Source: an uncultured Clostridia bacterium
Lineage (GTDB): Bacteria > Bacillota_I > Bacilli_A > RF39 > UBA660
Length of the DNA: 45,914 bases
Direction of reading: 5' to 3'
Assembly (NCBI GenBank): GCA_947165365.1
Contig: CAMVAF010000010.1
Location: 1 to 45,914, forward strand
The translations under genes were made by a program, and so were the position numbers. This document shows, piece by piece, positions 2,374 through 43,106 of this stretch (position 1 is the stretch's first letter; each line of letters opens with the position of its first letter). Under the pieces are notes generated by a model that was not told the DNA's origin, searched no databases, and worked only from the letters and a program-made list of their open reading frames with translations.

Positions 2374-4282
2374 TATTAGCTCCTATTTTATATAATTCTT
2401 CACTTCCAAAACCAATAACTTTTTCTAAATAATTTATCGTATACCAATTATCATTAATCGCTTTTTCATAATCTCCATAATAGATATAAGTAATATTATT
2501 TTCTTTACAAAAATCTTTTAATTCTTCATAATTGCTAAAATACATATTATGTATTTCCATGCTTCTATTATTATATTCATCAATAAATCCATGAAAATAA
2601 ACATAAAGAGATGAACCAACATAAATATTTCTTCCCGCAAGAGATACTATAGGATTTATATGCGTATCACTTGTTAAAAAGATACTTTCACTATCAGTAT
2701 TTTTCTTTATATAATCACTCATTTTTATCATATCATGAGAAAAAGTTTGATAAATACCTCCACTTTTATATTCTCTTCCAATGGTTAAAACACCTGATAA
2801 AGTACCTAAAATAATAATGATGATAGAAAAGAATATTCTTCCTTTAACCCCTTTTAATTTATTAAATAAATATATTAAATAATTAGAAACCATGATTATA
2901 AAAATCATATAACTTACAAAAAATAATTTATTATTATCATATTCATTTGGTTGAAAGATAATAAATTCTGCAAGTAGAAACAAAAGAAAAGCACTTATAA
3001 TTATTTTTTTATTATCTTTATCAGCATAAATAAACGCTGGTATTAAAAAGATAAATGTAATACCCCAATTTTTAACATAAAACCAGATATAAGGATCCAC
3101 TTTATTTACCCAATTAAAATGATATTTTAAAAATGATTCATTACCTATTGTCTGACTAAATGTCCAATAAAATAACTGAGGAAAAGCTATCAAAATAACA
3201 ATTAATCCATAAATTAAATAATTATAAAAAGTTTGTTTTTTATCTTTTTTTATTATTAAATCTATTATCATCATTCCTAAACTAATAACACCTAAAGCTA
3301 AAAAAGAATGAGTATGAATCATTGGCATGGTACTAGCAAGAAGTGCTAATATCACAAAATATTTTCTTTTTCCTGTTTTACTACCTTCTATTAATAACCA
3401 AAGTGTTGGCATAAGCATAAACCATCCGGCCATTGTTGTTCTTTGAGGAATAATCATATCACAAATTGGATTAGCCCATCTAATATTCATTTCATTAAAA
3501 TTAGTTGGCGTGTGATAGTAATCTGTAAATATTCTGGTAAATGATGCAATATCTCCTTTTGCGCCATCCAAAAAATAAATGAAACCAAGTCCTCCTCCAA
3601 GAAAGAAAAAGATACATGAGATAATGGCTGCCCTTTTATTACTAGTAATCTTATATGATAAAAAGTAAAATCCCATTACTAAAGATAATGATAAAACATA
3701 ACTAGGTATTAAAATAGACATTCTTAAAGAAGTACCAAATAAATATAAACTAGATGATAGACTATCCACTAAAAAAGGATAATTAAGTTTTGTTCCTGAT
3801 AAAAAAGCGTAATTTGGAGGAAATACTTTTTGTTCAGCGATACTAGTTATAAAACCTAAATGCATATTAAGGTCCCCATATGTAGATTGACCTGATGCTA
3901 CTGCCCCATTTTCTAGTGGTACTAATATATGATTAGTTAATAAAATGGCAATAACAAAAAAGATAGGAATAATTAAAAGCAAAAATATTTTTCCACTCAT
4001 TTCACCATCATTTAGAAAAGTAAATACTCTCTTTTTAAAAGAATTAAATCCCTTTTTTATAATTATAATAATTAAAGGAATAATAGCAATAATTAATAAA
4101 ATTATATGACTAATAATAGTAAAATCAAAAATAAAAGAAGGTATGATTATTCCAAACATTAAAATAACATTACCAAGAATCATACCTATCCATAAATGAA
4201 AATAGAAATTCTTTTTAAATATGTATTTACTATAAATAAAACCTAAAACTAAGAATAATAAATAATATATAATCCCTATCAT
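2363..4282 (-). CDS. large polytopic membrane protein, probable GT-C type glycosyltransferase
   Basis: A 639-residue protein with at least 12 predicted membrane helices. Its first large outside loop holds YGDLNMHLGFI (acidic residue D137) followed by LNYPFLVDSLSS, an arrangement seen in GT-C enzymes, where an acidic residue in the first loop is catalytic. The C-terminal roughly 120 residues after the last helix are soluble. I do not recognise a named family with certainty; DUF2298-like or YfhO-like proteins are the nearest guesses. The start has AAAGGAG at good spacing. It sits between a GT39-like protein and the acyltransferase, so the inferred role is transfer of a lipid-linked sugar to a surface polymer outside the membrane. 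Confidence 0.6.
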   Translation of the reverse strand: MIGIIYYLLFLVLGFIYSKYIFKKNFYFHLWIGMILGNVILMFGIIIPSFIFDFTIISHIILLIIAIIPLIIIIIKKGFNSFKKRVFTFLNDGEMSGKIFLLLIIPIFFVIAILLTNHILVPLENGAVASGQSTYGDLNMHLGFITSIAEQKVFPPNYAFLSGTKLNYPFLVDSLSSSLYLFGTSLRMSILIPSYVLSLSLVMGFYFLSYKITSNKRAAIISCIFFFLGGGLGFIYFLDGAKGDIASFTRIFTDYYHTPTNFNEMNIRWANPICDMIIPQRTTMAGWFMLMPTLWLLIEGSKTGKRKYFVILALLASTMPMIHTHSFLALGVISLGMMIIDLIIKKDKKQTFYNYLIYGLIVILIAFPQLFYWTFSQTIGNESFLKYHFNWVNKVDPYIWFYVKNWGITFIFLIPAFIYADKDNKKIIISAFLLFLLAEFIIFQPNEYDNNKLFFVSYMIFIIMVSNYLIYLFNKLKGVKGRIFFSIIIIILGTLSGVLTIGREYKSGGIYQTFSHDMIKMSDYIKKNTDSESIFLTSDTHINPIVSLAGRNIYVGSSLYVYFHGFIDEYNNRSMEIHNMYFSNYEELKDFCKENNITYIYYGDYEKAINDNWYTINYLEKVIGFGSEELYKIGANNEE

Positions 4283-4316
4283 AATATCTCCTTTATATCA
4301 TTTTTTTAAATATAAA

Positions 4317-5519
4317 TTATTTCATAACAGTATACATTAAAATTGTACCAAAAACATTCAGAATAACTCCCAAAATAATAATCATAATTTCTAATTTATT
4401 TAATCTATATTCTTTAACATCATTATCATATATTAAACCTAAGAATACAAAAGGTAAAATATCTATTGTATATCTAGCTCCAAATTGCCAAGCTCCTAAA
4501 GTTTTATGCAAACATATTAATATAATATTTATACAAACAAATATCAAAACTAATATATTTAAGAAATTAATTTTTTTCTTTTTTATATATTTTTTTATCA
4601 TCTCATATATATAAACAATTAATATAGGGTTAGCAATAAAAAAACAAAAAGGCATCATGAAATGTAAGTGTAATCTACTATCAACATCAATCTCATTAAA
4701 AAATAATTCTTTTAAATTTGGCAATAAATAGTTAATACTAAATTGACCATTAACTGCTTCTGTAAATTCTGGTAAATAATTATGTCCAAATTCTAATATA
4801 TTATCAAACCTAATATAATTGTAGAACATATAGCATAACCCAATAATAATTGATGGTAACAAATACATAATATTAATTTTTAATTTAACAAACAATTTAT
4901 TTTCTTTATCTGAAACTAAATAATAGATAAAAAACATTATCATGTAAATTAGTGAAAATGGTCTACACCCAACTGCCAAAGCAAGAAATAAAAATACATA
5001 TATCTTTTTCTTATTTAAAAATGAATTAACCGCCAACAAACACAATAAATAATTTAAAAGTTGTGCTAAAAACCAAACACCACTATCCATGGAAATTGAT
5101 ATTAAATTAGTGCCAATAGTAAATGCTAAAGATAAAAGTATTGATATAAATTCATTGTATTTTAATTTTTTTAATATTCGATACAAGATAAAAAAACAAG
5201 AAGAAAATAATATAAATGATATTAAATTAGTCGGTATATTATCACCAAAAACAATAATAAAAGGTAACAAAAAAACAGATGGTAATGGTGGAAAACTAAC
5301 AAAATAATGACCATTATATATAGCAAGTTCTAAATTTTCATAATTATGATCTAAAAAGACTTGCCCTTTTAACCATGCTTTAGCTTGTAACTCATACGAA
5401 TTATAAACACTACTGCCTACAATAGAAGTGTCTATAATTTGATGAATTAAAACAAATATCATAAAAAATGAAAAAATAATCATTAACAAATTACTATATT
5501 TTTTTATAAACTTTATCAT
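4317..5519 (-). CDS. polytopic membrane protein, GT39-like glycosyltransferase
   Basis: A 400-residue membrane protein with about 10 helices. After the first helix an outside loop carries NSYELQAKAWLKGQVFL and then NGHYFVSFPPLPSVFLLPF, a layout common in bacterial GT39/ArnT-like GT-C proteins (acidic and aromatic loop, then a Pro-rich turn into helix 2). Catalytic residues are not certain. The gene overlaps the upstream one by four bases, which indicates coupled translation, and lies 34 bases before the next. The substrate is probably a polyprenyl-phosphate sugar. Confidence 0.6.
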   Translation of the reverse strand: MIKFIKKYSNLLMIIFSFFMIFVLIHQIIDTSIVGSSVYNSYELQAKAWLKGQVFLDHNYENLELAIYNGHYFVSFPPLPSVFLLPFIIVFGDNIPTNLISFILFSSCFFILYRILKKLKYNEFISILLSLAFTIGTNLISISMDSGVWFLAQLLNYLLCLLAVNSFLNKKKIYVFLFLALAVGCRPFSLIYMIMFFIYYLVSDKENKLFVKLKINIMYLLPSIIIGLCYMFYNYIRFDNILEFGHNYLPEFTEAVNGQFSINYLLPNLKELFFNEIDVDSRLHLHFMMPFCFFIANPILIVYIYEMIKKYIKKKKINFLNILVLIFVCINIILICLHKTLGAWQFGARYTIDILPFVFLGLIYDNDVKEYRLNKLEIMIIILGVILNVFGTILMYTVMK

Positions 5520-6730
5520 ACCCTATCCCCACTAAAATACTCCACATACATATTTTTAGAATAAACAACAAGCATAACAAGATATAAAATACTTAAAATT
5601 GATATATCAATAGCAAAACCTGAGAATAACAAATACATATAACCATTAAGTGAAATTAATTCAATAATAATTGGTATATAATATTTATCTTTATGTATAG
5701 ACCAATAAATTAAAGCAATAACATCTCCCATAAATAGATATCTTTCATGCATCTGTGGTAAGAAGAAATTACATATTAAAATAGACCATAGTGCAAAATC
5801 AATAATACTTTTTTTATTAAATTTAATTTTTTTATTAATGACAACAAAAGCTATTATCATAAAAATTATAAGAGTAATAATAATACCAATACTACTCATT
5901 TCTTTTAATGGAGTATTAATTAAATTAGGGTTACTACTATCATATCCTTTAAGAAATATACTATAAAAATTAGGAAGATTTAACGTTAAATAATTATCAT
6001 ATGTACCAGCCTGATTAAAATAAATTCTAAAACCTGTTAAGAAATCATGAGAAAAAATAACTTTTGGGATACTACAAGCAAAAACTACTAATGGAATAAT
6101 TAAAAAGTTTTTAAACCTAATTTTCCTATTAGAGAAATATAAAAGAACATATAATGGAAAGATAAAAATCGCTTGAAATTTAAATGAAAAAGCTAAACTC
6201 CAAAAAATCATTCCTTTTATAAAATCATTCTTAATTAAATAATAAAGAGATATTAAAACAAAAGATGTATATATACTATCACTTTGTGCCCAATAACTAG
6301 AATTTAAAATAATAGTTGGTAATATTAAATAAATACCATAAATAATTAAAGCAATTCTTTTACTATTTTTATTATTTTTAAATAATTCTAGAACTATTTT
6401 AATCAAATAAATACCACCAAGATATTCAAAAATCAAAGATACTATTTTAATTGATATTAAAGAATCTACTGGAATATAAGTAAGAATCGATAAAATAGTC
6501 ATATAAATTGGTGTATAATTTCCAATATTTCTACTTAAAGCAAGTAATCCACCATTAATTTTTAAATCATTAAACCAAGGTTTTAAAAACATATCATAGT
6601 CCCCTGATGGATATTTAAGTAAAAATATTCTAATAACTAAAGAAAAAATAGTTAATAATATAAATAATATAACATATGGATGTTTTTCAATATATTTCCA
6701 TGTTTTATTTTCAATATCAAATTTTTTCAT
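5516..6730 (-). CDS. Gpi18-like mannosyltransferase family membrane protein (GT-C)
   Basis: A 404-residue polytopic protein. The first outside loop contains YPSGDYDMFLKPWFNDL and later NYTPIYM, and a late loop contains LPQMHERYLFMGD. Together these are characteristic of bacterial proteins related to the Gpi18 mannosyltransferase (COG5542), with D-Y-D as the likely catalytic loop. ATG at 6730 is preferred to an upstream TTG at 6754 because AGGGAG lies seven bases before it and MKKFDIENK is a normal N-terminus. Only 11 bases separate it from the PMT gene. It presumably moves a polyprenyl-linked hexose onto an extracytoplasmic acceptor; donor and acceptor are unknown. Confidence 0.7.
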   Translation of the reverse strand: MKKFDIENKTWKYIEKHPYVILFILLTIFSLVIRIFLLKYPSGDYDMFLKPWFNDLKINGGLLALSRNIGNYTPIYMTILSILTYIPVDSLISIKIVSLIFEYLGGIYLIKIVLELFKNNKNSKRIALIIYGIYLILPTIILNSSYWAQSDSIYTSFVLISLYYLIKNDFIKGMIFWSLAFSFKFQAIFIFPLYVLLYFSNRKIRFKNFLIIPLVVFACSIPKVIFSHDFLTGFRIYFNQAGTYDNYLTLNLPNFYSIFLKGYDSSNPNLINTPLKEMSSIGIIITLIIFMIIAFVVINKKIKFNKKSIIDFALWSILICNFFLPQMHERYLFMGDVIALIYWSIHKDKYYIPIIIELISLNGYMYLLFSGFAIDISILSILYLVMLVVYSKNMYVEYFSGDRV

Positions 6731-6741
6731 AAAAATACTCC

Positions 6742-8595
6742 CTAAAAATACCAACTAGATAACCATTTTAATGATTCAATATAATCACTTTCAATACTTA
6801 TTCCAGAAACCACTGGATAAAAGATAAAAAACATAATGATAACAGAATAAATATATATCCAATATACTTTATCGCTTTTAGTTTTTTCTACTAACCATTT
6901 AATTAAAGATACAATTCCTAACATAACAAATGGTAATGTAATAAAATAATGATACATAAACATAATTCTGCCTATAAAGATATATGGAATAAATGATGAA
7001 AGAATAAAAATCAAGATAAATCTACTAAGATTATTTTTCTTTATAGCACTAACAACTAAATAAATAAATCCAGGTATTCCAAACCACCATACTAGAGGGT
7101 TACCAATATCTACAATTGTTTCTCTAAATCCATTAACCATTTCACCAGAATATAACCATACTGGTTTATACATAATAGGCCACTCATACCACTTTGATGT
7201 AAAAGGATGTGTTGCCTCAAGATTAGCATGATAATCATACATCATTTTATTAGTTTTAAAAATACCACTAAATGTTCCATCATAATAACTAAGATTTGGG
7301 AACAATAAATAACTTAAAATATAAATAACAATAGGTATCACAATAAAACTAATCACACAAACAATAAATAATTTAAATAAGTCTTTATCTTTTCTTAAAA
7401 ATTTTATAAATTTAAAGATTAAATATCCAATTATAATTACAAAATAAATAATTACTATTACTTTTGCAATTTGACTATCAAAAACCAAGAAAAACAAATA
7501 ATAAAGCATTACTGGTAATAATAGACTAGAAACTATGTTAATCCAAGTATTTATCTTGATATTCTTAATATATTTAATAACATTAACATGATATTCCTTG
7601 AATAAATGTCTAAAGAAAACAATAGCAAGACCTAAAGCAACATACAAGGCATTCCATTTAACTCCAATAGCTAATCCAATAAATAATCCTGATAACAATA
7701 AATTAATAGTTTTCTTTTTAAATGAATCCCTTTTCCCTAAATTAAAATAATTAACCATAAAAATAACTGATAAAAGAATAAATAATATTTGGAAACTATC
7801 AGATAAAGCAATTCTAGTATCTGCAAAATGAAAATTATCAAACATCATTATAATAGCGCCCAATAAAGCATATTTTCTATTTTCAAATAATTTCTTACAT
7901 AAAATATACATTATAGGTATTAAAAGAATTCCTGCGATATTTCCCATAAGACGCACCGTAAAAGGACTAAAACCAAAAATTAATACAGGTATTGACATAA
8001 TAAGTTTAGCAACAGGAGGATGACTCCATTCAAAAGCATCCAATCCATGTGTATATTCATAAGCACTTCTTGCAAAATAAACTTCATCAAAATATAAACT
8101 ATTCATATAACTAATTTTTTTTGGTATTAAAGAAGTTTCATCTGTTAAAGGACCATCTTGTTTTGGTATATTAATTCTATTTTCAAAATTATCATAAAAA
8201 GCAATATCACCTAAAGTAACACCATCTGTTTTACCAACAAATTTAATTGAATTAAATGATGTATCAATTAAAACATCTTCATATGATAAAACAGAATTTG
8301 TTGTAAAATCTTTTAAAAATTGATAATCCCCATCACCACTTTTAGTCCAAATAGAAATATCACCAATATTATAACCAGTGTAATATCGCATTTTAGATAC
8401 ATAATTTTCATTATTTAAATTAACAACAATTTCATTATTATCATTAAAATTATGAAATGTTTTTGGAGATGACATATCCCCTAAACGATAAAAAGATAAT
8501 ATTCCATAAACCAATACCATAATTCCCATAATAATATAATCTATTTTTTTTATTTTAAAATCAGTATCATTTAATATTTTAAGAAAATTCTTCAT
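6742..8595 (-). CDS. PMT-family protein O-mannosyltransferase-like GT39
   Basis: A 617-residue protein with the PMT core: helix 1 near residues 18-36, the catalytic acidic pair in LYFDEVYFARSAYEYTHG (D170, E171), EWSHPPVAKLIMSIPVLIFG (about 189 onward), and a C-terminal four-helix part with GNPLVWWFGIPG. The family moves mannose from a polyprenyl phosphate to Ser/Thr of exported proteins. Unusually, about 120 residues that look like a small beta domain separate helix 1 from the DE motif. The start at 8595 follows GGGAG at six bases; an ATG at 8607 would contain that site. It is the first gene of the operon, 16 bases downstream of a sigma-A -10 box. Serine/threonine-rich exported proteins elsewhere in the window are possible targets (inference). 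Confidence 0.85.
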   Translation of the reverse strand: MKNFLKILNDTDFKIKKIDYIIMGIMVLVYGILSFYRLGDMSSPKTFHNFNDNNEIVVNLNNENYVSKMRYYTGYNIGDISIWTKSGDGDYQFLKDFTTNSVLSYEDVLIDTSFNSIKFVGKTDGVTLGDIAFYDNFENRINIPKQDGPLTDETSLIPKKISYMNSLYFDEVYFARSAYEYTHGLDAFEWSHPPVAKLIMSIPVLIFGFSPFTVRLMGNIAGILLIPIMYILCKKLFENRKYALLGAIIMMFDNFHFADTRIALSDSFQILFILLSVIFMVNYFNLGKRDSFKKKTINLLLSGLFIGLAIGVKWNALYVALGLAIVFFRHLFKEYHVNVIKYIKNIKINTWINIVSSLLLPVMLYYLFFLVFDSQIAKVIVIIYFVIIIGYLIFKFIKFLRKDKDLFKLFIVCVISFIVIPIVIYILSYLLFPNLSYYDGTFSGIFKTNKMMYDYHANLEATHPFTSKWYEWPIMYKPVWLYSGEMVNGFRETIVDIGNPLVWWFGIPGFIYLVVSAIKKNNLSRFILIFILSSFIPYIFIGRIMFMYHYFITLPFVMLGIVSLIKWLVEKTKSDKVYWIYIYSVIIMFFIFYPVVSGISIESDYIESLKWLSSWYF

Positions 8596-8610
8596 ATTAA
8601 CTCCCATTTA

Positions 8611-8639
8611 ATTATACCAAACATCCAATAGATAAACAA
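8611..8639 (-). promoter_or_regulatory. sigma-A promoter of the glycan operon
   Basis: On the minus strand TTGTTT (8634-8639) and TATAAT (8611-8616) are separated by 17 bases, with a TGG extended -10. The transcript would start a few bases before the PMT ribosome binding site and could cover every gene down to the window's left edge, all on the same strand and nearly all closely spaced or overlapping. Confidence 0.75.
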
Positions 8640-8661
8640 GAATAATTAAAAGATAGAAAAG

Positions 8662-8703
8662 AAAAAAGAATAGTAATTTTTTCTATATTACTATTCTTTT
8701 TTT
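8662..8703 (-). terminator. Rho-independent terminator of lon
   Basis: On the minus strand a 15-base arm ending GAATAGTAA pairs with TTACTATTC and continues into a T run (8662-8676 with 8688-8703). It overlaps the lon stop codon and isolates lon from the glycan operon promoter. Confidence 0.8.
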
Positions 8704-10972
8704 ACTTATATAAATTCAAATATTTTAAAACCTCTTTAACATCGGTAACTGGAATAATATTTAATTTATCAATAATTTCTTTAGAAATATCTTTCAAATC
8801 ATTTACATTATCTTTAGGAATAAACACTTTTTTTATACCAGCTCTTTCGGCTGCCATTAATTTTTCATTTAATCCACCTATAGGCATAACAAGACCTCTT
8901 AAGCTAACCTCTCCTGTCATCGCTATTTTTTCATCAACACGTTTATTAGTTATAAGTGATGCTAAACTTGAAGTTATCGTTATACCAGCTGATGGACCGT
9001 CCTTAGGAACAGCCCCATCTGGTACATGAATATGTAAATCATTATTTTTAAACAGATTTGCCTTTTTAGGATACAAATCCTTAACAAGACTAATAGCAAT
9101 TTGAACACTCTCTTTCATAACATCACCAAGTTGACCTGTAATAATCACCTTACCATCACCTTTAGTTAGAAGTGACTCAATAAATAGAATTTCTCCTCCA
9201 GCAGAAGTCCATGCAAGACCCGTAACTATTCCTGATTTCTTATTTTTAATAGCATGATCATGTTTAATTTCCTTAGTATCAATATATTCACTAACATTTT
9301 TGGCAGTAATATTTATTTTTTCTTCTTCATGAGAAACTATTTTAACAGCAACACATCTTGCTAAATGATTAAGAACTCTTTTTAAATTTCTAACTCCTGA
9401 TTCCATCGTATAACCAGAAATAATTTTATCAAGACCACTATCAGTTATCGTTAAATCTTTTTTTGATATTCCCGTTTTCTTTAATATTTCAGGAATTAAA
9501 TGTTTCTTAGCAATATATTTTTTTTCAATTGGAGTATATCCACTAAATTCAATAACTTCCATTCTATTTAACAAAGCCTCAGGAATATTTCCTATTTCAT
9601 TTGCAGTACAAATAAATAAAATATCAGATAAATCATATGGTACATTCAAATAATGATCAGTAAAAGTATTGTTTTGTTCAGGATCTAATACTTCCAAAAG
9701 AGCACTTGCTGGATCTCCTTCTATTGAGGTAATTAATTTATCAACTTCATCTAAAACTACAACAGGATTTGAAACACCACACTTACTAATACCATCCATG
9801 ATTCTACCTGGCATTGCCCCTACATATGTTCTTCTATGACCTCTTATTTCTGCTTCATCTCTTATTCCACCAAGACTAATTCTTACATATTTTCGATTAA
9901 GTGCATCAGCTATTGCTTTAGCAACTGATGTTTTTCCAGTACCAGGAGGACCAACAAATAACATAATACTTCCTGATTGTTTTTTGTTTAAATTCATTAC
10001 AGCAATCTCTTCAATTATTCTTTTTTTAACTTTTTTTAAGCCATAATGATTTTTATCAAGTATCGCTTTTGCTTCATCAATATCAATTTCCTTAAACCTT
10101 TCTTTTTTCCATGAAAGACTGGTCAAAAAATCAACATAATCATATAGCATACCATATTCTTGTGAATGATTACCCTCTTGCTTCATACGATTTATGACTT
10201 TTAAACATTCTTTTTTGGCAATATCATTCATCCCAGAATCATTAATTTTATTTTCAAATTTTTTTATATCACTTATTTCTTCTGGATGCATTTCATCTAA
10301 CTCTTTTTGCATATACTCTATCTGTTTTTTCAAAGCATGTTCACGATATATTTTTTCAGTTTCTTCTTTTTCACTATTTTCGGCTTCACTACTTATTTTT
10401 TCAACAGATATAAATTCATAAATAATTCTTTCTATTTCCCTACATCTTTCTTTATCAGAATCAATTTCCAGTAAATGATATTTTTCTTCAGAAGATAAAT
10501 GAATAAATTCATTAATTGCCGTAATCATTTCATTAACTGTTTTCCACTCAAAAATAAATCCCCTTGCAAAAAAAGACCACTCATAATTTTGAATAAATCT
10601 TAAAATTTCTTGTTTTAACTTATTTAATATTTCTTGCTCTACTTTATTATTCAAATCTTTTTTTGTTTCATATGGACTAATTTTTATTTCAAATTGATTA
10701 TCACTAACTTTTTCAATATATTCAATTTTAATTCTATCATTAGTTTTAATAATCGTTATTCCATTTTTCTTATCTTCAACTTTACCAATTACTCCAAGAC
10801 GATAAAAATCATCTAAATTAAAATTATTTGTAATACGAGACATTGTTGGAATTATAATAACATCATCATCTATCTCTAATTCTTTTCCATCCATTCCATG
10901 AGCAACATCATTTCTTAAATACAAATATGAATTTGGTAATAAAATATAATTATAAAGATTAATTATCTTCAT
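8702..10972 (-). CDS. lon: ATP-dependent protease Lon (LonA)
   Basis: A 756-residue Lon with a short N-terminal substrate domain, a coiled coil at about 195-240 (rich in E and K), and an AAA+ module with Walker A GPPGTGKT (341-348) and Walker B PVVVLDEVDKL. The C-terminal Ser-Lys protease domain has S661 in PKDGPSAG and K704 in LNEKLMAAE, 43 residues apart as in other Lon enzymes. It degrades damaged and regulatory proteins in the cytoplasm. The start is supported by AAGGAGAG and by the CIRCE operator placed between promoter and gene. It is monocistronic, with its own promoter and terminator, and likely heat-inducible through HrcA. Confidence 0.97.
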   Translation of the reverse strand: MKIINLYNYILLPNSYLYLRNDVAHGMDGKELEIDDDVIIIPTMSRITNNFNLDDFYRLGVIGKVEDKKNGITIIKTNDRIKIEYIEKVSDNQFEIKISPYETKKDLNNKVEQEILNKLKQEILRFIQNYEWSFFARGFIFEWKTVNEMITAINEFIHLSSEEKYHLLEIDSDKERCREIERIIYEFISVEKISSEAENSEKEETEKIYREHALKKQIEYMQKELDEMHPEEISDIKKFENKINDSGMNDIAKKECLKVINRMKQEGNHSQEYGMLYDYVDFLTSLSWKKERFKEIDIDEAKAILDKNHYGLKKVKKRIIEEIAVMNLNKKQSGSIMLFVGPPGTGKTSVAKAIADALNRKYVRISLGGIRDEAEIRGHRRTYVGAMPGRIMDGISKCGVSNPVVVLDEVDKLITSIEGDPASALLEVLDPEQNNTFTDHYLNVPYDLSDILFICTANEIGNIPEALLNRMEVIEFSGYTPIEKKYIAKKHLIPEILKKTGISKKDLTITDSGLDKIISGYTMESGVRNLKRVLNHLARCVAVKIVSHEEEKINITAKNVSEYIDTKEIKHDHAIKNKKSGIVTGLAWTSAGGEILFIESLLTKGDGKVIITGQLGDVMKESVQIAISLVKDLYPKKANLFKNNDLHIHVPDGAVPKDGPSAGITITSSLASLITNKRVDEKIAMTGEVSLRGLVMPIGGLNEKLMAAERAGIKKVFIPKDNVNDLKDISKEIIDKLNIIPVTDVKEVLKYLNLYK

Positions 10973-30349: not shown

Positions 30350-31225
30350 TCACTTTCTACTTCTAGGATGTGTTTTATAATATACTTCCTTTATATGTTC
30401 CGTTGTAACATGAGTATAAATACCTGTTGTACTAATAGAGGCATGACCAAGAAGTTCTTGAACTGTTAATAAATCACATCCATTATTAAGCAAATGAGTT
30501 GCAAAAGTATGTCTTAAAGTATGAGGATGAACATTTTTAATAATTGAAGTATTTCTTATTACTTTATCCATTATTACTCTAATGCCTCTTGTTGTAATAC
30601 CATTACCATTATGATTAATTATTAAATAATTATCATGTCTTATATCTTTACTTTCCTTAATAAATCTTTCTAATAAATCCTTGCATACTTTATTAAAGAA
30701 AACTATTCTTTCTTTTCTACCCTTACCAAAAACATTAATACTTCTCCTATTTAAATTAATATCTTCTAACTTGATATTAACAAGTTCTGATACACGAACA
30801 CCTGTTGCATACAATAGTTCCATAATTAATCTATCTCTTAAAGAGAAAACATCAACTATTTCAATAGAATCAAAAATATCTATTACTTCATTATAATTTA
30901 AAAATTGTGGTAATTTCTTTTCTTTTTTAGGTAATGTCACATAGATAAAAGGATTATCCTTACATAAATTATTTCTACATAAATATTTATAAAAACCCTT
31001 TAAACTACTAATCTTTCTTCTAATACTAAGATTCTTTAATCCTAAACTATGATAATATTCTAATAAAAATCTAATATCACTATACTCTACTTCATATAAT
31101 TTTAAACATTCTCTATCTAAATATTCTAAATATTCTTTAATATCATTAGAATAATTAATAATAGTATTATCACTATAATTTTTATTATATTTTAAATAAT
31201 CTAAATACTTTTCTAAATCTTTCAT
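30350..31225 (-). CDS. tyrosine recombinase, XerC/XerD family
   Basis: A 291-residue recombinase with the SAM-like N-terminal domain (1-90) and a complete catalytic set: R144 in ATGVRVSEL, K168 in VFGKGRKER, H235 and R238 in HPHTLRHTFATHLL, H261 in LGHASISTT and Y270 in GIYTHV. Length and motifs fit chromosomal XerD/XerC, which resolve chromosome dimers at dif, but a dedicated site-specific recombinase cannot be excluded. The start has GGTGG. A palindromic segment lies 30 bases upstream and an IS4 element beyond it. Confidence 0.88.
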   Translation of the reverse strand: MKDLEKYLDYLKYNKNYSDNTIINYSNDIKEYLEYLDRECLKLYEVEYSDIRFLLEYYHSLGLKNLSIRRKISSLKGFYKYLCRNNLCKDNPFIYVTLPKKEKKLPQFLNYNEVIDIFDSIEIVDVFSLRDRLIMELLYATGVRVSELVNIKLEDINLNRRSINVFGKGRKERIVFFNKVCKDLLERFIKESKDIRHDNYLIINHNGNGITTRGIRVIMDKVIRNTSIIKNVHPHTLRHTFATHLLNNGCDLLTVQELLGHASISTTGIYTHVTTEHIKEVYYKTHPRSRK

Positions 31226-31255
31226 ATTCCACCAAATTTCAAATTATAATTAAAA

Positions 31256-31321
31256 TGTGTACCTTAAACTATCCCTCCATTCGAGCATTTACTCTATTAA
31301 GCTGGATAGCTTGTGTACACA
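31256..31321. repeat. 66-base interrupted palindrome upstream of the recombinase gene
   Basis: Left arm TGTGTAC, six bases, CTATCC (31256-31274); right arm GGATAG, five bases, GTACACA (31304-31321). The two halves are exact complements outside the spacers, around a 29-base centre. It lies in the recombinase leader, just before the left end of the IS4 element. It could be a recombinase binding region, a small inverted-repeat element or a regulatory hairpin; no known site matches. Confidence 0.5.
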
Positions 31322-31389
31322 TTACCTACGGACAGTTTTTGAAAACTAATTAAGTAGAGGAATTTATCGTTCCTCAACATTTATTTCTT

Positions 31390-31416
31390 AAAAGGTCTAA
31401 AAATGGCCTTTTTTAT
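31390..31416 (+). terminator. hairpin blocking read-in to the IS4 transposase
   Basis: AAAAGGTC and GGCCTTTT arms followed by T residues, between the left end and the transposase gene; a second hairpin, GAGGAA/TTCCTC, lies at 31357-31375. Confidence 0.6.
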
Positions 31417-31486
31417 ATTCTTGATTATATGACACATTTCTATTATATTTATATCGTAAACAAAAGAATATAAAGAGGTGTGTCAT

Positions 31487-32650
31487 ATGTTTAAATTATA
31501 TAATACTCAAGAAGATATTGCAATGAAATTAACTGAATTTTTAATAAAAACTAATCCAATTATACGTAAAACCCAGCTTAATATTATTCCCTATATTGCT
31601 TTAGGTATGATTGATGCTGAATCTTCTGTTGCTTCTGATATTGCTAAAAAACTTAAAGGTAATTTTTCTCTAGTTCAATTTGATTCTGTCACTAAAAGAA
31701 TTAGAAGACTTTTTAACAACAAACATTTTGACCCTTATTCTTTTTATGAAAATATTATTAAATATGTCATTAATAATTATAAAGTTAAACATTCTAATAA
31801 CAAGATTCATATTATTTTTGATCATATGTACTCTAAAGAAAATTATACTGTTTTTATGTTTTCTTTAAGAGTTGGTAAGCAAGGAATTCCTTTATTATTT
31901 AGATGTTTTGAAGGTATTAATAATCCTAATGCTTTCACTGATGATACTATTGTTCAATGTATTAAAATTATTAGTTCTTATTTTAAAAATACTAATTTTA
32001 AACTTGTATTTCTTGCTGATAGATGGTTTAATTCTTTTCAAATCCTTAATACTATTTCCTCTCTAGGTCACATTTATAATATTAGAGTTAAAGGTAATAT
32101 TAAAGTTAAGATCTTTGACAATGTTAAAAACACTTATATTTATAAATATACATCTGAATTATCTTCTAATAAATATAAAGGCAAATATTATACTGATGTT
32201 TTCATCTATGAAAATTCTTCTTTAAAAACTAACATTACCATAAGTAAAAATGATTCTATTGATGAACCTTGGATTATTGCTACTAATGGTAATCCTAATG
32301 AAGCTATTCGTGATTATTCACATCGTTTTGGTGGTATAGAATGTATTTTCAAAAACCAAAAATCCAATGGTTTTTATATTGAAAATATTTGTAATGCTAA
32401 TATTAAATCTTTTACTTCTATGTTTGCTATTGTTTGTTTTTCAATTTTATTTCTTACTATTTTAGGGTGTAAATATTCTAAAAATAATTCTTGCTATAAA
32501 AATTTTAAAATTGAAACTCACAAGAAATATAAGAATATTAAACAACGAGTTATTTCTCTTTTTAATACTGGTCTTATTCTATTTCAACGTGCTTATAATT
32601 CCTCTGTTTATATTAGAATTCCATTTAATTTTATTCTTTATGATATTTAA
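31487..32650 (+). CDS. IS4-family DDE transposase
   Basis: A 387-residue DDE transposase. The acidic residues are seen in IIFDHMYSKEN and LVFLADRWFNSF and in the family signature YSHRFGGIECIFKNQKSNG, which approximates the IS4 Y-x2-R-x3-E-x6-K motif with one extra residue between R and E. ATG at 31487 is chosen over a GTG at 31478 because GAGG (31475-31478) sits eight bases before it. No frameshift or internal stop is visible. Confidence 0.88.
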   Translation: MFKLYNTQEDIAMKLTEFLIKTNPIIRKTQLNIIPYIALGMIDAESSVASDIAKKLKGNFSLVQFDSVTKRIRRLFNNKHFDPYSFYENIIKYVINNYKVKHSNNKIHIIFDHMYSKENYTVFMFSLRVGKQGIPLLFRCFEGINNPNAFTDDTIVQCIKIISSYFKNTNFKLVFLADRWFNSFQILNTISSLGHIYNIRVKGNIKVKIFDNVKNTYIYKYTSELSSNKYKGKYYTDVFIYENSSLKTNITISKNDSIDEPWIIATNGNPNEAIRDYSHRFGGIECIFKNQKSNGFYIENICNANIKSFTSMFAIVCFSILFLTILGCKYSKNNSCYKNFKIETHKKYKNIKQRVISLFNTGLILFQRAYNSSVYIRIPFNFILYDI

Positions 32651-32677
32651 CATCATTTCTTAACTTATCTTTTTTTG

Positions 32678-32726
32678 AAAATTCAGACACTGAATATTTT
32701 TTATCGTGTCTGAATTTTAATTTTTT
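32678..32726 (+). terminator. terminator of the IS4 transposase
   Basis: Perfect 13-base arms AAAATTCAGACAC and GTGTCTGAATTTT, then T residues. Confidence 0.8.
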
Positions 32727-32855
32727 GTAAAATTTACTTTCATTTACATCTCTATTACGTTTATCTTATGTAAATAATCATTTAAAAATACAATACATGG
32801 ACGACATTTTATCTGTACTTTTCGTTGATATATCTACGTTTAAGAAAAACTGTCC

Positions 32856-35336
32856 TTAGTTAAGTATTACATATGGAGATGTAGATGTTCCATCACCGCT
32901 TACTACTGGCATTCCAGGTTTAAGTGAAACGGACGGGCGCAAACCGCCGGTAACGTCCACATCGCGGTCGTCGATGCTGCCATTGATCACGTAGAACCCG
33001 CTGGCACCGGTGTAGTTAAAATCAGAAGGCGACAAAGACCAATAATATGTACTTCCGTTATTTAAATAAAATTGACTTGGACTTCCTCCTAAACCTCCTG
33101 CTAATACCATTTCATCTTCCGTTAATAATGCAACCGGATATGTTAATTTTTGATTTCCATTTCCATTACTTACTGTAAACGCATCATTTCTATTTGCACA
33201 TATTAAACTTGGCCCATTTTTTACTGTACTTGCACTACTTGCATAATTACTTCTTTCATATGCTCCGTATAATATAGAATTATCTTTATAATCAGTTCCC
33301 CAACTTCCTGTTGCACTCCATCCATTTGCTTTTCCTATACTTCTATCATTACACCATACTGTATCTTCCAATTTACTTGTTACAGTATTCATGTTACTTG
33401 CATACCATGTATCTATTTGTGTTTTTGCATTTGAATTATTAGTATTAGTATTCATTTTAATAAGAGTTTCTTCTACTCCATCTCCTCCTGTTAAAGTTAT
33501 GTAATACTTTGTTGCATTATTATTGTAAGTATAATATACATATCTTAAATCTGTGCATGTTGCATCTGCATCTGTAGAATTACAACTATAATGATGTGTT
33601 GCATCTGGGGTCGTTACTGTTGCATCTACCAATTTATAATTTGTTCCATCCCATGTAAAACTACTTCCAAATTTTGCTCCACTTGTCCAATTTGATGTAC
33701 TATATGGATAAACAGTTCCATACATATATCCTACATATGCTGGTGAATTACTATTTGTATTAAATGCAAACTTATTTGTTCCTAATATATTTATATGAGT
33801 ACTTTCACCAGTATTACCACATCCTAATTCTCCTGTATCTTTTTCCATTAAAACAGTATAATCATTCTTTGTCAACTTTGTTGTATTTTGCTGCATACTC
33901 ATTTTAACTGTAATTCCACAAGAGGAAGAGGTAGAGCTACCACTAATTACCATTTTTATAACATTAGAAGCTGTTAGTGTTCCATATGAATATGAATAAT
34001 TTATTGGATTTCCACCACCTTGTGATGTACCATTAACTTGAACACCATCTTTGTATACTCCAATACCACCACCACATGTAGATCCTGTTGTTCCAGTTAT
34101 TACAATATTATAATTATCTCCAGCAGGTACTTTGAAACTTATTTCGCGATTGGTTCCATCACTCACTTCATAGTTCCATGTATTGTCTGTGCTATCAAAT
34201 GTAAACATATCTCCGGCATTTTCACTAGCATAAGTATCTGGATCAGTAAATTCTCTACTACGTACTGTAATCTGTTCTCCACTATATATTAGTTTAACTC
34301 CACCTGTATCTGTTGTTCTTACTGCTTTCCAACATTTATTATTGAAAACGACATTATTATCTTCTACTGCTCCTCGATAATATACTATTGGATATGCATC
34401 ATTTTCTGTTCCTGCTCTCATATAAATCCCCTGTCCATTTGTACTACTTGAGACTGCGCCAAAGTTAATTCCTGTGCTTGCAGAAACAAATTCACTAGAA
34501 ACATTATCCATTATTGGTTGATTAGTTGTGGTATTTAAATTCTTTGTTCTCATTATATTATCTAGTGTATTATTTACCCATATTCCTTCATTGGCTTCTA
34601 CTTTTATTTGAAATGATACTCCACTACTGGATAATGCATTCCATTCTGTTGTAGTTAATACTGTTTTTCCTTGCGCTAAAGAGTTTGGTGTACCCATATT
34701 ATCTGATTCGGTTCCATCATATGTATCAGATATTAATATTTTATTTTCATCTAAATATGCCTTAATTGTTAACTTACCATTTACTCCTTCAATAGTTCCT
34801 CTTGTTGTATTAGGTTTAATATAACCAACAAGTAACATTTGATCTCCTACTAGGGTATCTCCTACTAACTTTTTATATATCGTTGTATCTTTGCTTTCTC
34901 TGGCTGTGAAATAATTTGGATTAGATGTTCCTAAATTAATAACAGTTACATCTAAACTAATTGGAACTAATTTACCTGTTGATGTTGTAATATGTGTATT
35001 GGTACTTGAAACTAAATATTCTACACCTTGGTCATAATCAGTATCACCTTCAATTTCAATTTCTAATGTACCAACTTTTGTAGTATCATTCATTTGAGTA
35101 TTATCAGTTGGATCTATTGGGAATATATTTGTTAAATTAATGGTATTATTATTCGTTTGTTCGGTACTGAAATATATTCTTCCTGTTCTTAAGGTATTAG
35201 CATTACCTGTTCTTGTATAATTAAAAAAAGCATATGTTGTTCCACCAACAAAAATCATTAAGGTAAATACTGCTATTACCATAATCATTTGTTTTGGACT
35301 TTTAATTAAATATTTTTCTATTTTTCTTTCTCTCAT
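32856..35336 (-). CDS. large TasA-leader surface protein with C-terminal C-type-lectin/FGE-like module
   Basis: An 826-residue exported protein. The N-terminus has a hydrophobic helix (about 18-38) leading into GGTTYAFFNYTRTGNANTLRTG, like SipW-dependent TasA/CalY precursors; a beta-rich region follows (40-270). From about residue 290 it is paralogous to the protein at 41013-43106: shared CWKAVRTTDTGG, DATHHYSCN, LEDTVWCNDRS, FTVSNGNGN, ALLTEDEMVLAGG and the terminal WSLSPSDF to GLRPSVSLKPG. It carries an extra domain of roughly 150 residues (about 355-500) that the paralogue lacks. The terminal module resembles DUF6273/FISUMP and FGE-like lectin folds. There is no LPXTG or C-terminal helix. 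AGGAG precedes the start; codons 774-803 are unusually G+C-rich. Confidence 0.8.
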   Translation of the reverse strand: MRERKIEKYLIKSPKQMIMVIAVFTLMIFVGGTTYAFFNYTRTGNANTLRTGRIYFSTEQTNNNTINLTNIFPIDPTDNTQMNDTTKVGTLEIEIEGDTDYDQGVEYLVSSTNTHITTSTGKLVPISLDVTVINLGTSNPNYFTARESKDTTIYKKLVGDTLVGDQMLLVGYIKPNTTRGTIEGVNGKLTIKAYLDENKILISDTYDGTESDNMGTPNSLAQGKTVLTTTEWNALSSSGVSFQIKVEANEGIWVNNTLDNIMRTKNLNTTTNQPIMDNVSSEFVSASTGINFGAVSSSTNGQGIYMRAGTENDAYPIVYYRGAVEDNNVVFNNKCWKAVRTTDTGGVKLIYSGEQITVRSREFTDPDTYASENAGDMFTFDSTDNTWNYEVSDGTNREISFKVPAGDNYNIVITGTTGSTCGGGIGVYKDGVQVNGTSQGGGNPINYSYSYGTLTASNVIKMVISGSSTSSSCGITVKMSMQQNTTKLTKNDYTVLMEKDTGELGCGNTGESTHINILGTNKFAFNTNSNSPAYVGYMYGTVYPYSTSNWTSGAKFGSSFTWDGTNYKLVDATVTTPDATHHYSCNSTDADATCTDLRYVYYTYNNNATKYYITLTGGDGVEETLIKMNTNTNNSNAKTQIDTWYASNMNTVTSKLEDTVWCNDRSIGKANGWSATGSWGTDYKDNSILYGAYERSNYASSASTVKNGPSLICANRNDAFTVSNGNGNQKLTYPVALLTEDEMVLAGGLGGSPSQFYLNNGSTYYWSLSPSDFNYTGASGFYVINGSIDDRDVDVTGGLRPSVSLKPGMPVVSGDGTSTSPYVILN
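32925..33041 (-). other. candidate diversity-generating retroelement variable region
   Basis: Codons 766 (Trp) to 804 of the surface protein. Of the 30 codons 774-803, 24 end in C or G (19 in C) and none in A, while flanking codons and the paralogue's aligned codons end almost always in A or T. The NNC codons (TAC, ACC, GCC, AGC, TTC, ATC, GAC, CGC, GGC) can all come from AAC by changing only adenines, which is how DGR reverse transcription diversifies a template. The last part, GGCGGTTTGCGCCCGTCC, is G+C-rich like an IMH element. No template repeat or reverse transcriptase is visible in the window. Confidence 0.55.
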
Positions 35337-41012: not shown

Positions 41013-43106
41013 TTAACTTGTGTATTTCACAACATATGGCTTAGTTGTCGTACCTTCTCCTCCTTCAACAAAATCTGTTCCAGATTTAAGAGATATTACT
41101 GGACGTACACCATCAACACCATACACATTACGATTAATTATATTACCATTAGAATGTACAGAAAATTCAAAGGAATTATCAGCACTAAAATTATAAGGCG
41201 ACATTGACCAAAAATTGTTTGATATATATAAATAATAACTTGTATTACTTGTATAACCATTTCCAGATGCACCAGCTAAAACCATTTCATCAACAGTTAA
41301 TAATCCAACAGGATATTTTAATTTTCCATTTCCATTATCATTACTTACAGTAAATTTATCCACATCATTTACACAAACAAAGGTAGGAATATGCGTTGTA
41401 CTATACCAATTTCCATTATTCCACCTTGTTCTAGCATTAAAATGCATATCAGTTTCTAAACTTCCACCGTTAGGATTCCATCCTGATAAATTAAATGTAT
41501 TGCTACCAACTTGTTGATAAGATCTATCATTACAAAAAACAGTATCTTCTAAATAATTTTGAAAATTTATTTTTGTTGAATCTACTTCATTAGTTAAATT
41601 TTCCTTAAACCAATTTTCTATTAATGTTTTTAATGCTGAATCATTCTGATTTAAAACATAACTTGCATTTTTTGCTTTTGTTTCACTACTACCATTTCCC
41701 GTCATTTTATATAATGCATCCTCAATAAAATCTCCATCTGTTAAAGTGATATAATTATAATTTGAACCACTATTATAGTAATAATATCTAATACTAGAGC
41801 ATGTTCCAAATTCATTTGTCATATTACAGGTATAGTGATGGGTAGCATCAAGGGTTGTACTAGTTGTCCCAGCTTTTAAATTGTAAACTTTATTTGTTTC
41901 ATCATATTCTGCTTCTGTTGCAAAATATGCTCCTGTTATGGCTTCATCATTAGTATATGAATATCTCTTGTTATACATATAACCTATATCTGACATAGAT
42001 GTATTGTTCGAATTAAATCTTGTCGTACTTGCAAGTTGTCTTGCTGTACCCACAGCATTCTCACACGTTGGATTTTCCGTTGTTCCTGTTGCTACACCAT
42101 TATAGATCATTTTAGTTCCACCAGTTTCAGTGGTTCTTACGATTAACCAACAAAATCCGCCAAAAATGACATTATTGTTTGTTACGGCACCTCTATAGTA
42201 ATATATTGGATTAACATCATTCTCTGTTCCAGGTAGGATATACACACCTTTTCCATTAGTATCGCTTGATATTTCTCCAAAGTTAATTGGATTAGTCGGT
42301 GTTATAACATTTTTCTTCATAACATTAAGTCCTGTTAATGGCCATTCGGCAACTACTGTGATATCTTCAATTCCTACAAAACCTGTAAGATCATTTACTT
42401 CATCTTCACCCTTCATCCATTTAATAACACCTGTAATATTAGGGAAATCTCCATAATCATCTCCTGATTTAATATATTTAAAGGTATAAGTTCCTCTATT
42501 ATCATCAGAATTAAATGTTAATTTATGATAATCTTCTTTATCAATATTAACTGCATATAAATAGATATCAAATTGATAATTACCAGTAATTAATCCTTCA
42601 CTTGCTTCATCTAACCATATTCTTAATCGATAATTATTTGTTGTTGTTTTACTAGTACCATTAGGATTACCTTCTATTATTCTTTGATTTAATATTTTAC
42701 CATTATTTTTTTTGCTATCAATTAATTCATTATAAGTATATATTCCTAATACTTCACTATCATTTTGATCTGTTAAATATATTTTTACATGATCAAGTTG
42801 TTCACTTGTTAAACCAGTTTGGACAAGTTCTACTTCATAAAGAATTTCTTCCGTATCAGCAACTCCTTCAATTGAAAAATCTAATCCAGCGCTTAATTTA
42901 CCTTGTCCATCAGAACTAGATGATATATTATTACTAGTAATAGTCTTTTTTTCTCCAACAAAGTTAATACCAATACTTCCTGCAGATAAATCTGCCATAA
43001 CAACTTCCTTTTCATACATAAAATATGAATAAGTAATTCCAACACTCATTATAATAAAACCTAGTATTGCTACAATATAAACAAAATTTTTATACTTTCT
43101 AATCAT
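41013..43106 (-). CDS. TasA-leader surface protein, paralogue of the one at 32856
   Basis: A 697-residue exported protein. A hydrophobic helix (about 8-27) runs into GITYSYFMYEKEVVMADLSAGSIGINF, again a SipW/TasA-type leader. A beta-sandwich region (60-190) precedes a short InlB/Listeria-Bacteroides-like repeat (about 192-255, LTFNSDDNRGTYTF to TVVAEWP). Then comes the core shared with the other surface protein: CWLIVRTTETGG, DATHHYTCN, LEDTVFCNDRS, FTVSNDNGNGK, GLLTVDEMVLAGA and the last module WSMSPYNF to DGVRPVISLKSG. In this copy the terminal module uses ordinary AT-rich codons. No LPXTG motif. AGGTGA precedes the start. It ends the sortase-led cluster and also has its own promoter. Confidence 0.8.
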   Translation of the reverse strand: MIRKYKNFVYIVAILGFIIMSVGITYSYFMYEKEVVMADLSAGSIGINFVGEKKTITSNNISSSSDGQGKLSAGLDFSIEGVADTEEILYEVELVQTGLTSEQLDHVKIYLTDQNDSEVLGIYTYNELIDSKKNNGKILNQRIIEGNPNGTSKTTTNNYRLRIWLDEASEGLITGNYQFDIYLYAVNIDKEDYHKLTFNSDDNRGTYTFKYIKSGDDYGDFPNITGVIKWMKGEDEVNDLTGFVGIEDITVVAEWPLTGLNVMKKNVITPTNPINFGEISSDTNGKGVYILPGTENDVNPIYYYRGAVTNNNVIFGGFCWLIVRTTETGGTKMIYNGVATGTTENPTCENAVGTARQLASTTRFNSNNTSMSDIGYMYNKRYSYTNDEAITGAYFATEAEYDETNKVYNLKAGTTSTTLDATHHYTCNMTNEFGTCSSIRYYYYNSGSNYNYITLTDGDFIEDALYKMTGNGSSETKAKNASYVLNQNDSALKTLIENWFKENLTNEVDSTKINFQNYLEDTVFCNDRSYQQVGSNTFNLSGWNPNGGSLETDMHFNARTRWNNGNWYSTTHIPTFVCVNDVDKFTVSNDNGNGKLKYPVGLLTVDEMVLAGASGNGYTSNTSYYLYISNNFWSMSPYNFSADNSFEFSVHSNGNIINRNVYGVDGVRPVISLKSGTDFVEGGEGTTTKPYVVKYTS

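Follow-up and report, generated by a model that had tools for sequence, protein, structure and literature searches.

The stretch of DNA analysed here, which we call the window (45,914 nucleotides), is the whole of contig C10 of a genome assembly, G000, of 1.41 Mb in 51 contigs, with a completeness of 82.1% and a contamination of 4.1%. On its minus strand, an open reading frame at 32856-35336 is translated into a surface protein of 826 aa with an N-terminal hydrophobic segment and a C-terminal variable module; a search of this protein against Pfam and NCBIfam gave no family name. Codons 774-803 of the gene form an island of unusual composition: 24 of these 30 codons have G or C at the third position (C in 19 cases) and none has A there, a count already given in the preliminary description and found again in ours. 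The background of the contig is very different, with a GC3 of 12.9% and a C3 of 4.1% over the 30 open reading frames counted in the window, and the runner-up among the 12,115 30-codon windows compared has only 12 codons ending in G or C and 8 ending in C. The borders of the island had been described as sharp, and we could locate them at codon level: it begins right behind TGG-TCT-TTG-TCG-CCT and stops at GGT-TTG-CGC-CCG-TCC-GTT. The first of these strings (WSLSP; 33027-33041, minus strand) is common to the paralogues, and partly to a template of a genome of the same family, G144. Between it and a 3' end which by sequence comparison is IMH-like (TCCGTTTCACTT; 32922-32933, minus strand) lies the putative variable region (VR), at 32934-33026 on the minus strand, made mostly of NNC codons and co-located with islands of sister genomes for which the templates (TRs) are known. 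As in the targets of diversity-generating retroelements (DGRs), the VR occupies the 3' end of a coding gene and closes in the IMH-like sequence.

Directly behind the stop codon of this gene we find an IS4-like insertion sequence (31330-32855, plus strand; transposase at 31478-32650; terminal inverted repeats GGACAGTTTTT). It abuts the stop codon, at a place often taken by a hairpin in other targets of the genus. In several of these targets the hairpin is perfect, with a stem of about 10-11 bp and a loop of 4 nt, and in the same genome the copies on contigs C32 and C46 have one with an 11-bp stem and a 4-nt loop. No hairpin was found after the stop codon of the window copy, because the insertion sequence sits there. 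Given the role of such a hairpin in the Bordetella phage BPP-1, discussed below, its absence suggests that the target is likely no longer rewritable. A downstream hairpin or cruciform is needed only in a subset of DGRs and does not define all of them. On the other side of the insertion sequence, between it and a XerC-like recombinase gene (30350-31225), the interval 31206-31330 contains an imperfect inverted repeat, AATGTGTAC...GTACACATT, with an inner repeat AGCTATCC...GGGATAGT; this is possibly a recombination site near the surface-protein gene.

A search of the genome gave six copies of the C-terminal module. In four of them (the window gene and the copies on C8, C32 and C46) the GC-rich island with C-ending codons is present at exactly the same place, while it is absent from the other two, one on C12 and one in the window itself. 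The latter belongs to a paralogous surface protein of 697 aa (41013-43106, minus strand), in which this copy spans 41028-41210 and the aligned module, at 41079-41210, has the AT-ending codons and the Asn-rich stretch SNGNIINRNV which the preliminary description had quoted. Both AT-coded copies have T at most third positions.

If the copies had diverged by drift, or if a segment had been imported, their differences should fall mostly at the third codon position; a DGR with a template made of AAC and AAT codons would place them at the first and second positions. Over 14 islands, the rates of difference at codon positions 1, 2 and 3 are 0.55, 0.50 and 0.35 in the VR, as against 0.29, 0.33 and 0.38 upstream of it. 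The ratio of positions 1 and 2 to position 3 is thus 1.51 in the VR and 0.8 in the flank, where it never exceeds 0.86 in upstream windows of equal length. The islands are related sequences and so cannot be counted as independent trials, but the direction of this excess is clear, and it favours a DGR over drift or import. The AT-coded copies keep the excess, with a ratio of 1.34. Hence they resemble retired VRs in which C at third positions has given way to T by drift, and we read the module at 41013 as such a retired VR, the composition of which would since have ameliorated.

Complete DGRs are found in sister species. Among the other four genomes of the genus, two give an RVT_1 match, the rumen MAGs RUG12925 (G002) and RUG14705 (G003), and both loci show the full layout of a DGR. 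In G002 (locus L012, on contig C24, which has the target of CACZTI010000024.1) the VR is at 66-200, the TR at about 522-650, an Avd-like gene at 762-1178 and the reverse transcriptase (RT) gene at 1159-2631. In G003 (locus L013) the target is at 4628-6898, the TR at about 7148-7270, the Avd-like gene at 7444-7809 and the RT gene at 7790-9265. The two RTs have IGAVTSQ and IGAMTSQ, together with YMDD; the motif (I/V/L)GxxxSQ is a mark of DGR RTs (PMC3521204). The Avd-like neighbours match bAvd weakly, under the Pfam cut-off (E 2.5e-4 and 6e-4), and also match the PHROG "Avd protein of DGR". When TR and VR are compared, both genomes show no mismatch other than at adenines inside 60-nt core windows. 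Over 119 nt, the pair of G003 has 24 adenine mismatches and one other, which falls at the IMH; the VR of G002 is one codon longer than its TR. Further TR/VR pairs differing at adenines only, or nearly so, stand beside RTs in other genera of the family. As a separate observation, the C-terminal parts of both RTs (L012 1159-2631 and L013 7790-9265) match MutS domain I (MutS_I; E 1.5e-4 and 1.1e-6), a match of which we found no mention in the DGR surveys checked.

Several facts link the window copy to these DGRs. The orthologue of the window gene in G003 is a second target, located about 4 kb downstream of the RT of the complete DGR, and it too bears a WSLSP-type island. At its 3' end the window copy has the initiation sequence of the sister DGRs, CCGTTTCACTT. 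Across the genus, VRs terminate in GTTTCACTT or in something close to it where the TRs read ATTTTC; those of the sister DGRs end in CCGTTTCACT/CGTTTC, the matching TR positions being CATTTTCACT/ATTTTC. In G144, a template beside an RT shares the 5' edge, TGGTCTTTGTCGCC, and continues with Asn codons. In four genomes of the genus, 18 of the target modules that we compared have, by our own count, a GC3 of at least 0.5 in the VR, as against 0.08-0.20 in the flanks. Sequence comparison thus shows the island to be homologous, position for position, to VRs which stand beside complete DGRs of the same genus and which differ from their TRs at adenines only. This supports the proposal of the preliminary description that the segment is a DGR target.

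The same proposal held that the target is served from elsewhere in the genome, and suggested looking there for a DGR RT and for a repeat differing at adenines. This is supported only in part: neither an intact RT nor a template turned up in the 82%-complete assembly. Searched with base-or-adenine patterns allowing up to 3 mismatches, G000 and the four congeners gave, as templates for the window VR, only the VRs themselves. The Asn-run pattern TTYAAYRAYRRYAAYGCNAAY has exact matches only in G002 and G003, and when 2 mismatches are allowed it matches about as often as a reversed control does. A TR model, R1, built on seven TRs, found no template in G000: its matches are VRs, at 26 bits at most, plus an AT-coded paralogue at C18:26211. 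It matches the window VR itself at 32934-33033 with 21.9 bits, when true TRs reach 94-106 bits. A scan of the window and of the target loci for the TR leader motif gave none in the window, a search of viral contigs (IMG/VR) gave no relative, and RVT_1 has no match in G000. What G000 does contain, in place of the RT with (I/V/L)GxxxSQ of a complete cassette, is an RT fragment of about 120 aa (query residues 16-132) with one stop; it lies at C46:2792-3139, a short way downstream of the target on that contig. Between that target and the fragment is a short reading frame weakly similar to a winged helix-turn-helix. Judging from this fragment, one DGR core of the source lineage appears decayed; the unassembled portion of the genome could still contain a working one. 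The same contig carries, at 3440-8870 (L046), tandem genes for YhcG-like nucleases (DUF1016) and ORF6N proteins, some of them truncated. Short GC-rich palindromes such as GGTGCCCCACTGGGGCACC occur inside the coding sequence of this run, at a similar place in successive copies.

We consider it very probable that the gene is a remote DGR target and that the segment is its variable region, on which a DGR acted in trans. The mechanism would be the following: an adenine-mutagenic RT, together with its Avd partner, would copy a template RNA rich in AAC and AAT codons, and the resulting cDNA would replace the 3' end of the surface-protein gene up to the IMH, so that AAC codons would become NNC codons. 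The C at third positions, and with it the GC-rich look of the island in an AT-rich genome, would reflect this conversion of AAC into NNC. A TR serving the window VR would be expected to carry TGGTCTTTGTCGCC...TTTTCACTT. We infer that the window copy was diversified likewise, in trans, in the recent past. It is probably frozen now, because an insertion sequence occupies the hairpin site and because the assembly has no intact RT or TR.

A variant of this explanation gives the island the same origin and denies only that the target is frozen: a DGR still active, with its RT and its template in the roughly 18% of the genome which is unassembled, would continue to serve it. The incompleteness of the assembly and its 51 contigs leave room for such a core, the sister species have an intact RT, and the codons of the window copy still have C at third positions when those of the two retired copies have drifted to T. 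Against this, the sole trace of an RT is a fragment with a stop, the TR model finds no template, and the insertion sequence stands where targets often have their downstream hairpin. We regard continued activity as possible but rather doubtful.

The action of DGRs on distant targets is made plausible by other genomes of the family. In G087, one contig bears both a template (C2:219157; L196, L197) and, 183 kb away, the best RT match; a VR situated on a different contig differs from this template by 11 adenine mismatches, nearly all A to G, and no other in 45 nt. In G100, a VR on contig C13 and a template on contig C10 of that genome show 8 adenine mismatches and no other in 45 nt; contig C38 carries the RT. 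Contig C7 of G003 has a deleted template-like element after a target, without RT. In our tally, an RT match is present in 39 of the 46 genomes of the family which have a VR- or TR-like match (G000 being counted through its remnant) and in 34 of the 99 which do not, an association which is partly circular since the query peptide also detects templates. We also noted that G045 (C20:7000-14500; L169) has two identical templates, each with GC-rich VRs alongside, and that the RT query has no match in this 91%-complete genome.

Tandem arrays of template-like units, devoid of coding capacity, occur in other genera of the family. One array has at least 12 units with a spacing of about 280 bp (G142:C11:11500-15000; L167) and another has five (G100:C25; L168), neither with an RT beside it; a third, of eight full units, comes just after an RT (G145:C50; L170). 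In all three the leader and the 3' end of the units are conserved, and the substitutions are concentrated at adenines. Sorted by the base of the consensus or master template, the variation between the units of G142 is 0.15 at A, 0.08 at C and 0.01-0.02 at G and T; in G100 it is 0.24 at A and 0.07-0.09 elsewhere, figures which are approximate because of codon indels. The units may be templates, but they may also be recipients or relics. We found no description of arrays of this kind in the literature, of which our coverage was partial.

Such arrays, and the fact that the module is common to several paralogues, could suggest that GC-rich modules are shuffled by gene conversion from silent cassettes, in the manner of pilin or vlsE. 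This is highly improbable: no such array was found in the assembly, the islands differ almost codon by codon without sharing long blocks of variants, and the TR/VR relation in the sisters involves adenines only. Least probable of all, and rejected here, is the alternative raised in the preliminary description, recombination with a higher-GC relative without any DGR, which would equally give a sharp compositional edge but leaves unexplained the recurrence of the island at the same codons, four times in the genome and again in three further congeneric species, the concentration of differences at codon positions 1 and 2 and the true TR/VR pairs of the sisters, the target genes of the relatives being, moreover, AT-rich outside the island as well.

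Returning to a remote DGR target, we may tentatively picture the family as a distributed DGR network, although we think it rather unlikely: it would have one RT, several scattered templates, some of them lone and others grouped into tandem arrays (5-12 non-coding units, which themselves vary mainly at adenines), and surface-protein targets, all paralogous, numbering up to about a dozen across the genome. The window gene would be one retired node of this network, and the arrays a stored library of alternative scaffolds for diversification. The dispersed templates and the tandem arrays of template-like units may be new. If the arrays are functional, their architecture is unusual in that the templates vary, and not the targets alone. 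More generally, when an AT-rich genome shows an island of NNC codons, this can reveal a target of hypermutation even without template and enzyme; orphan targets of this sort would be missed by DGR finders based on TR/VR pairs. Remote DGR targets are hereby extended to a small-genome family of the rumen; in this family, deposited under the name of uncultured Erysipelotrichaceae, surface proteins appear to undergo diversification at many loci.

A C-type-lectin or FGE fold had been expected for the C-terminus, an expectation which our models did not confirm. They are of middling quality (pLDDT 67-68, pTM 0.67-0.70), and with them Foldseek gave no significant lectin match, C-type lectin domains and the C-terminal domain of Legionella Lcl appearing only at E >1.

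An orphan or remote DGR target is of a kind already known. In isolates of Treponema denticola, DGR targets occur without a core DGR (PMC4891356): there too, surface-protein genes bearing a VR persist without RT and TR, and remote targets exist, but here the target is immediately followed by an insertion sequence, and another target still has an RT fragment beside it. Cyanobacterial DGRs have remote CLec targets with dispersed paralogues (PMC7517822), and are similar to ours in that the paralogous targets are dispersed, with the VR at the 3' end, for one or few RTs; they differ by the phylum, and they have a CLec fold, whereas the present family gave no significant lectin match. The degenerate DGR loci of Thiohalocapsa PB-PSB1 (PMC10907252) are likewise eroded by transposons, with RT or TR missing and targets thought to be diversified in trans; their activity was shown by population reads, whereas our case is described from assembled sequence. 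Finally, the target site of the Bordetella phage BPP-1 consists of an IMH plus a hairpin which is important for the efficiency of homing (PMC3240598). The genus has in common with it a 3' IMH in the VR which is altered in the TR, and a hairpin with a 4-nt loop after several targets, for instance GGTGAATGAAA-ACCC-TTTCATTCACC on C32. The loops of the genus are ACCC, AACC, AAAC or CTCA and not GRNA, and the window copy has lost the element.
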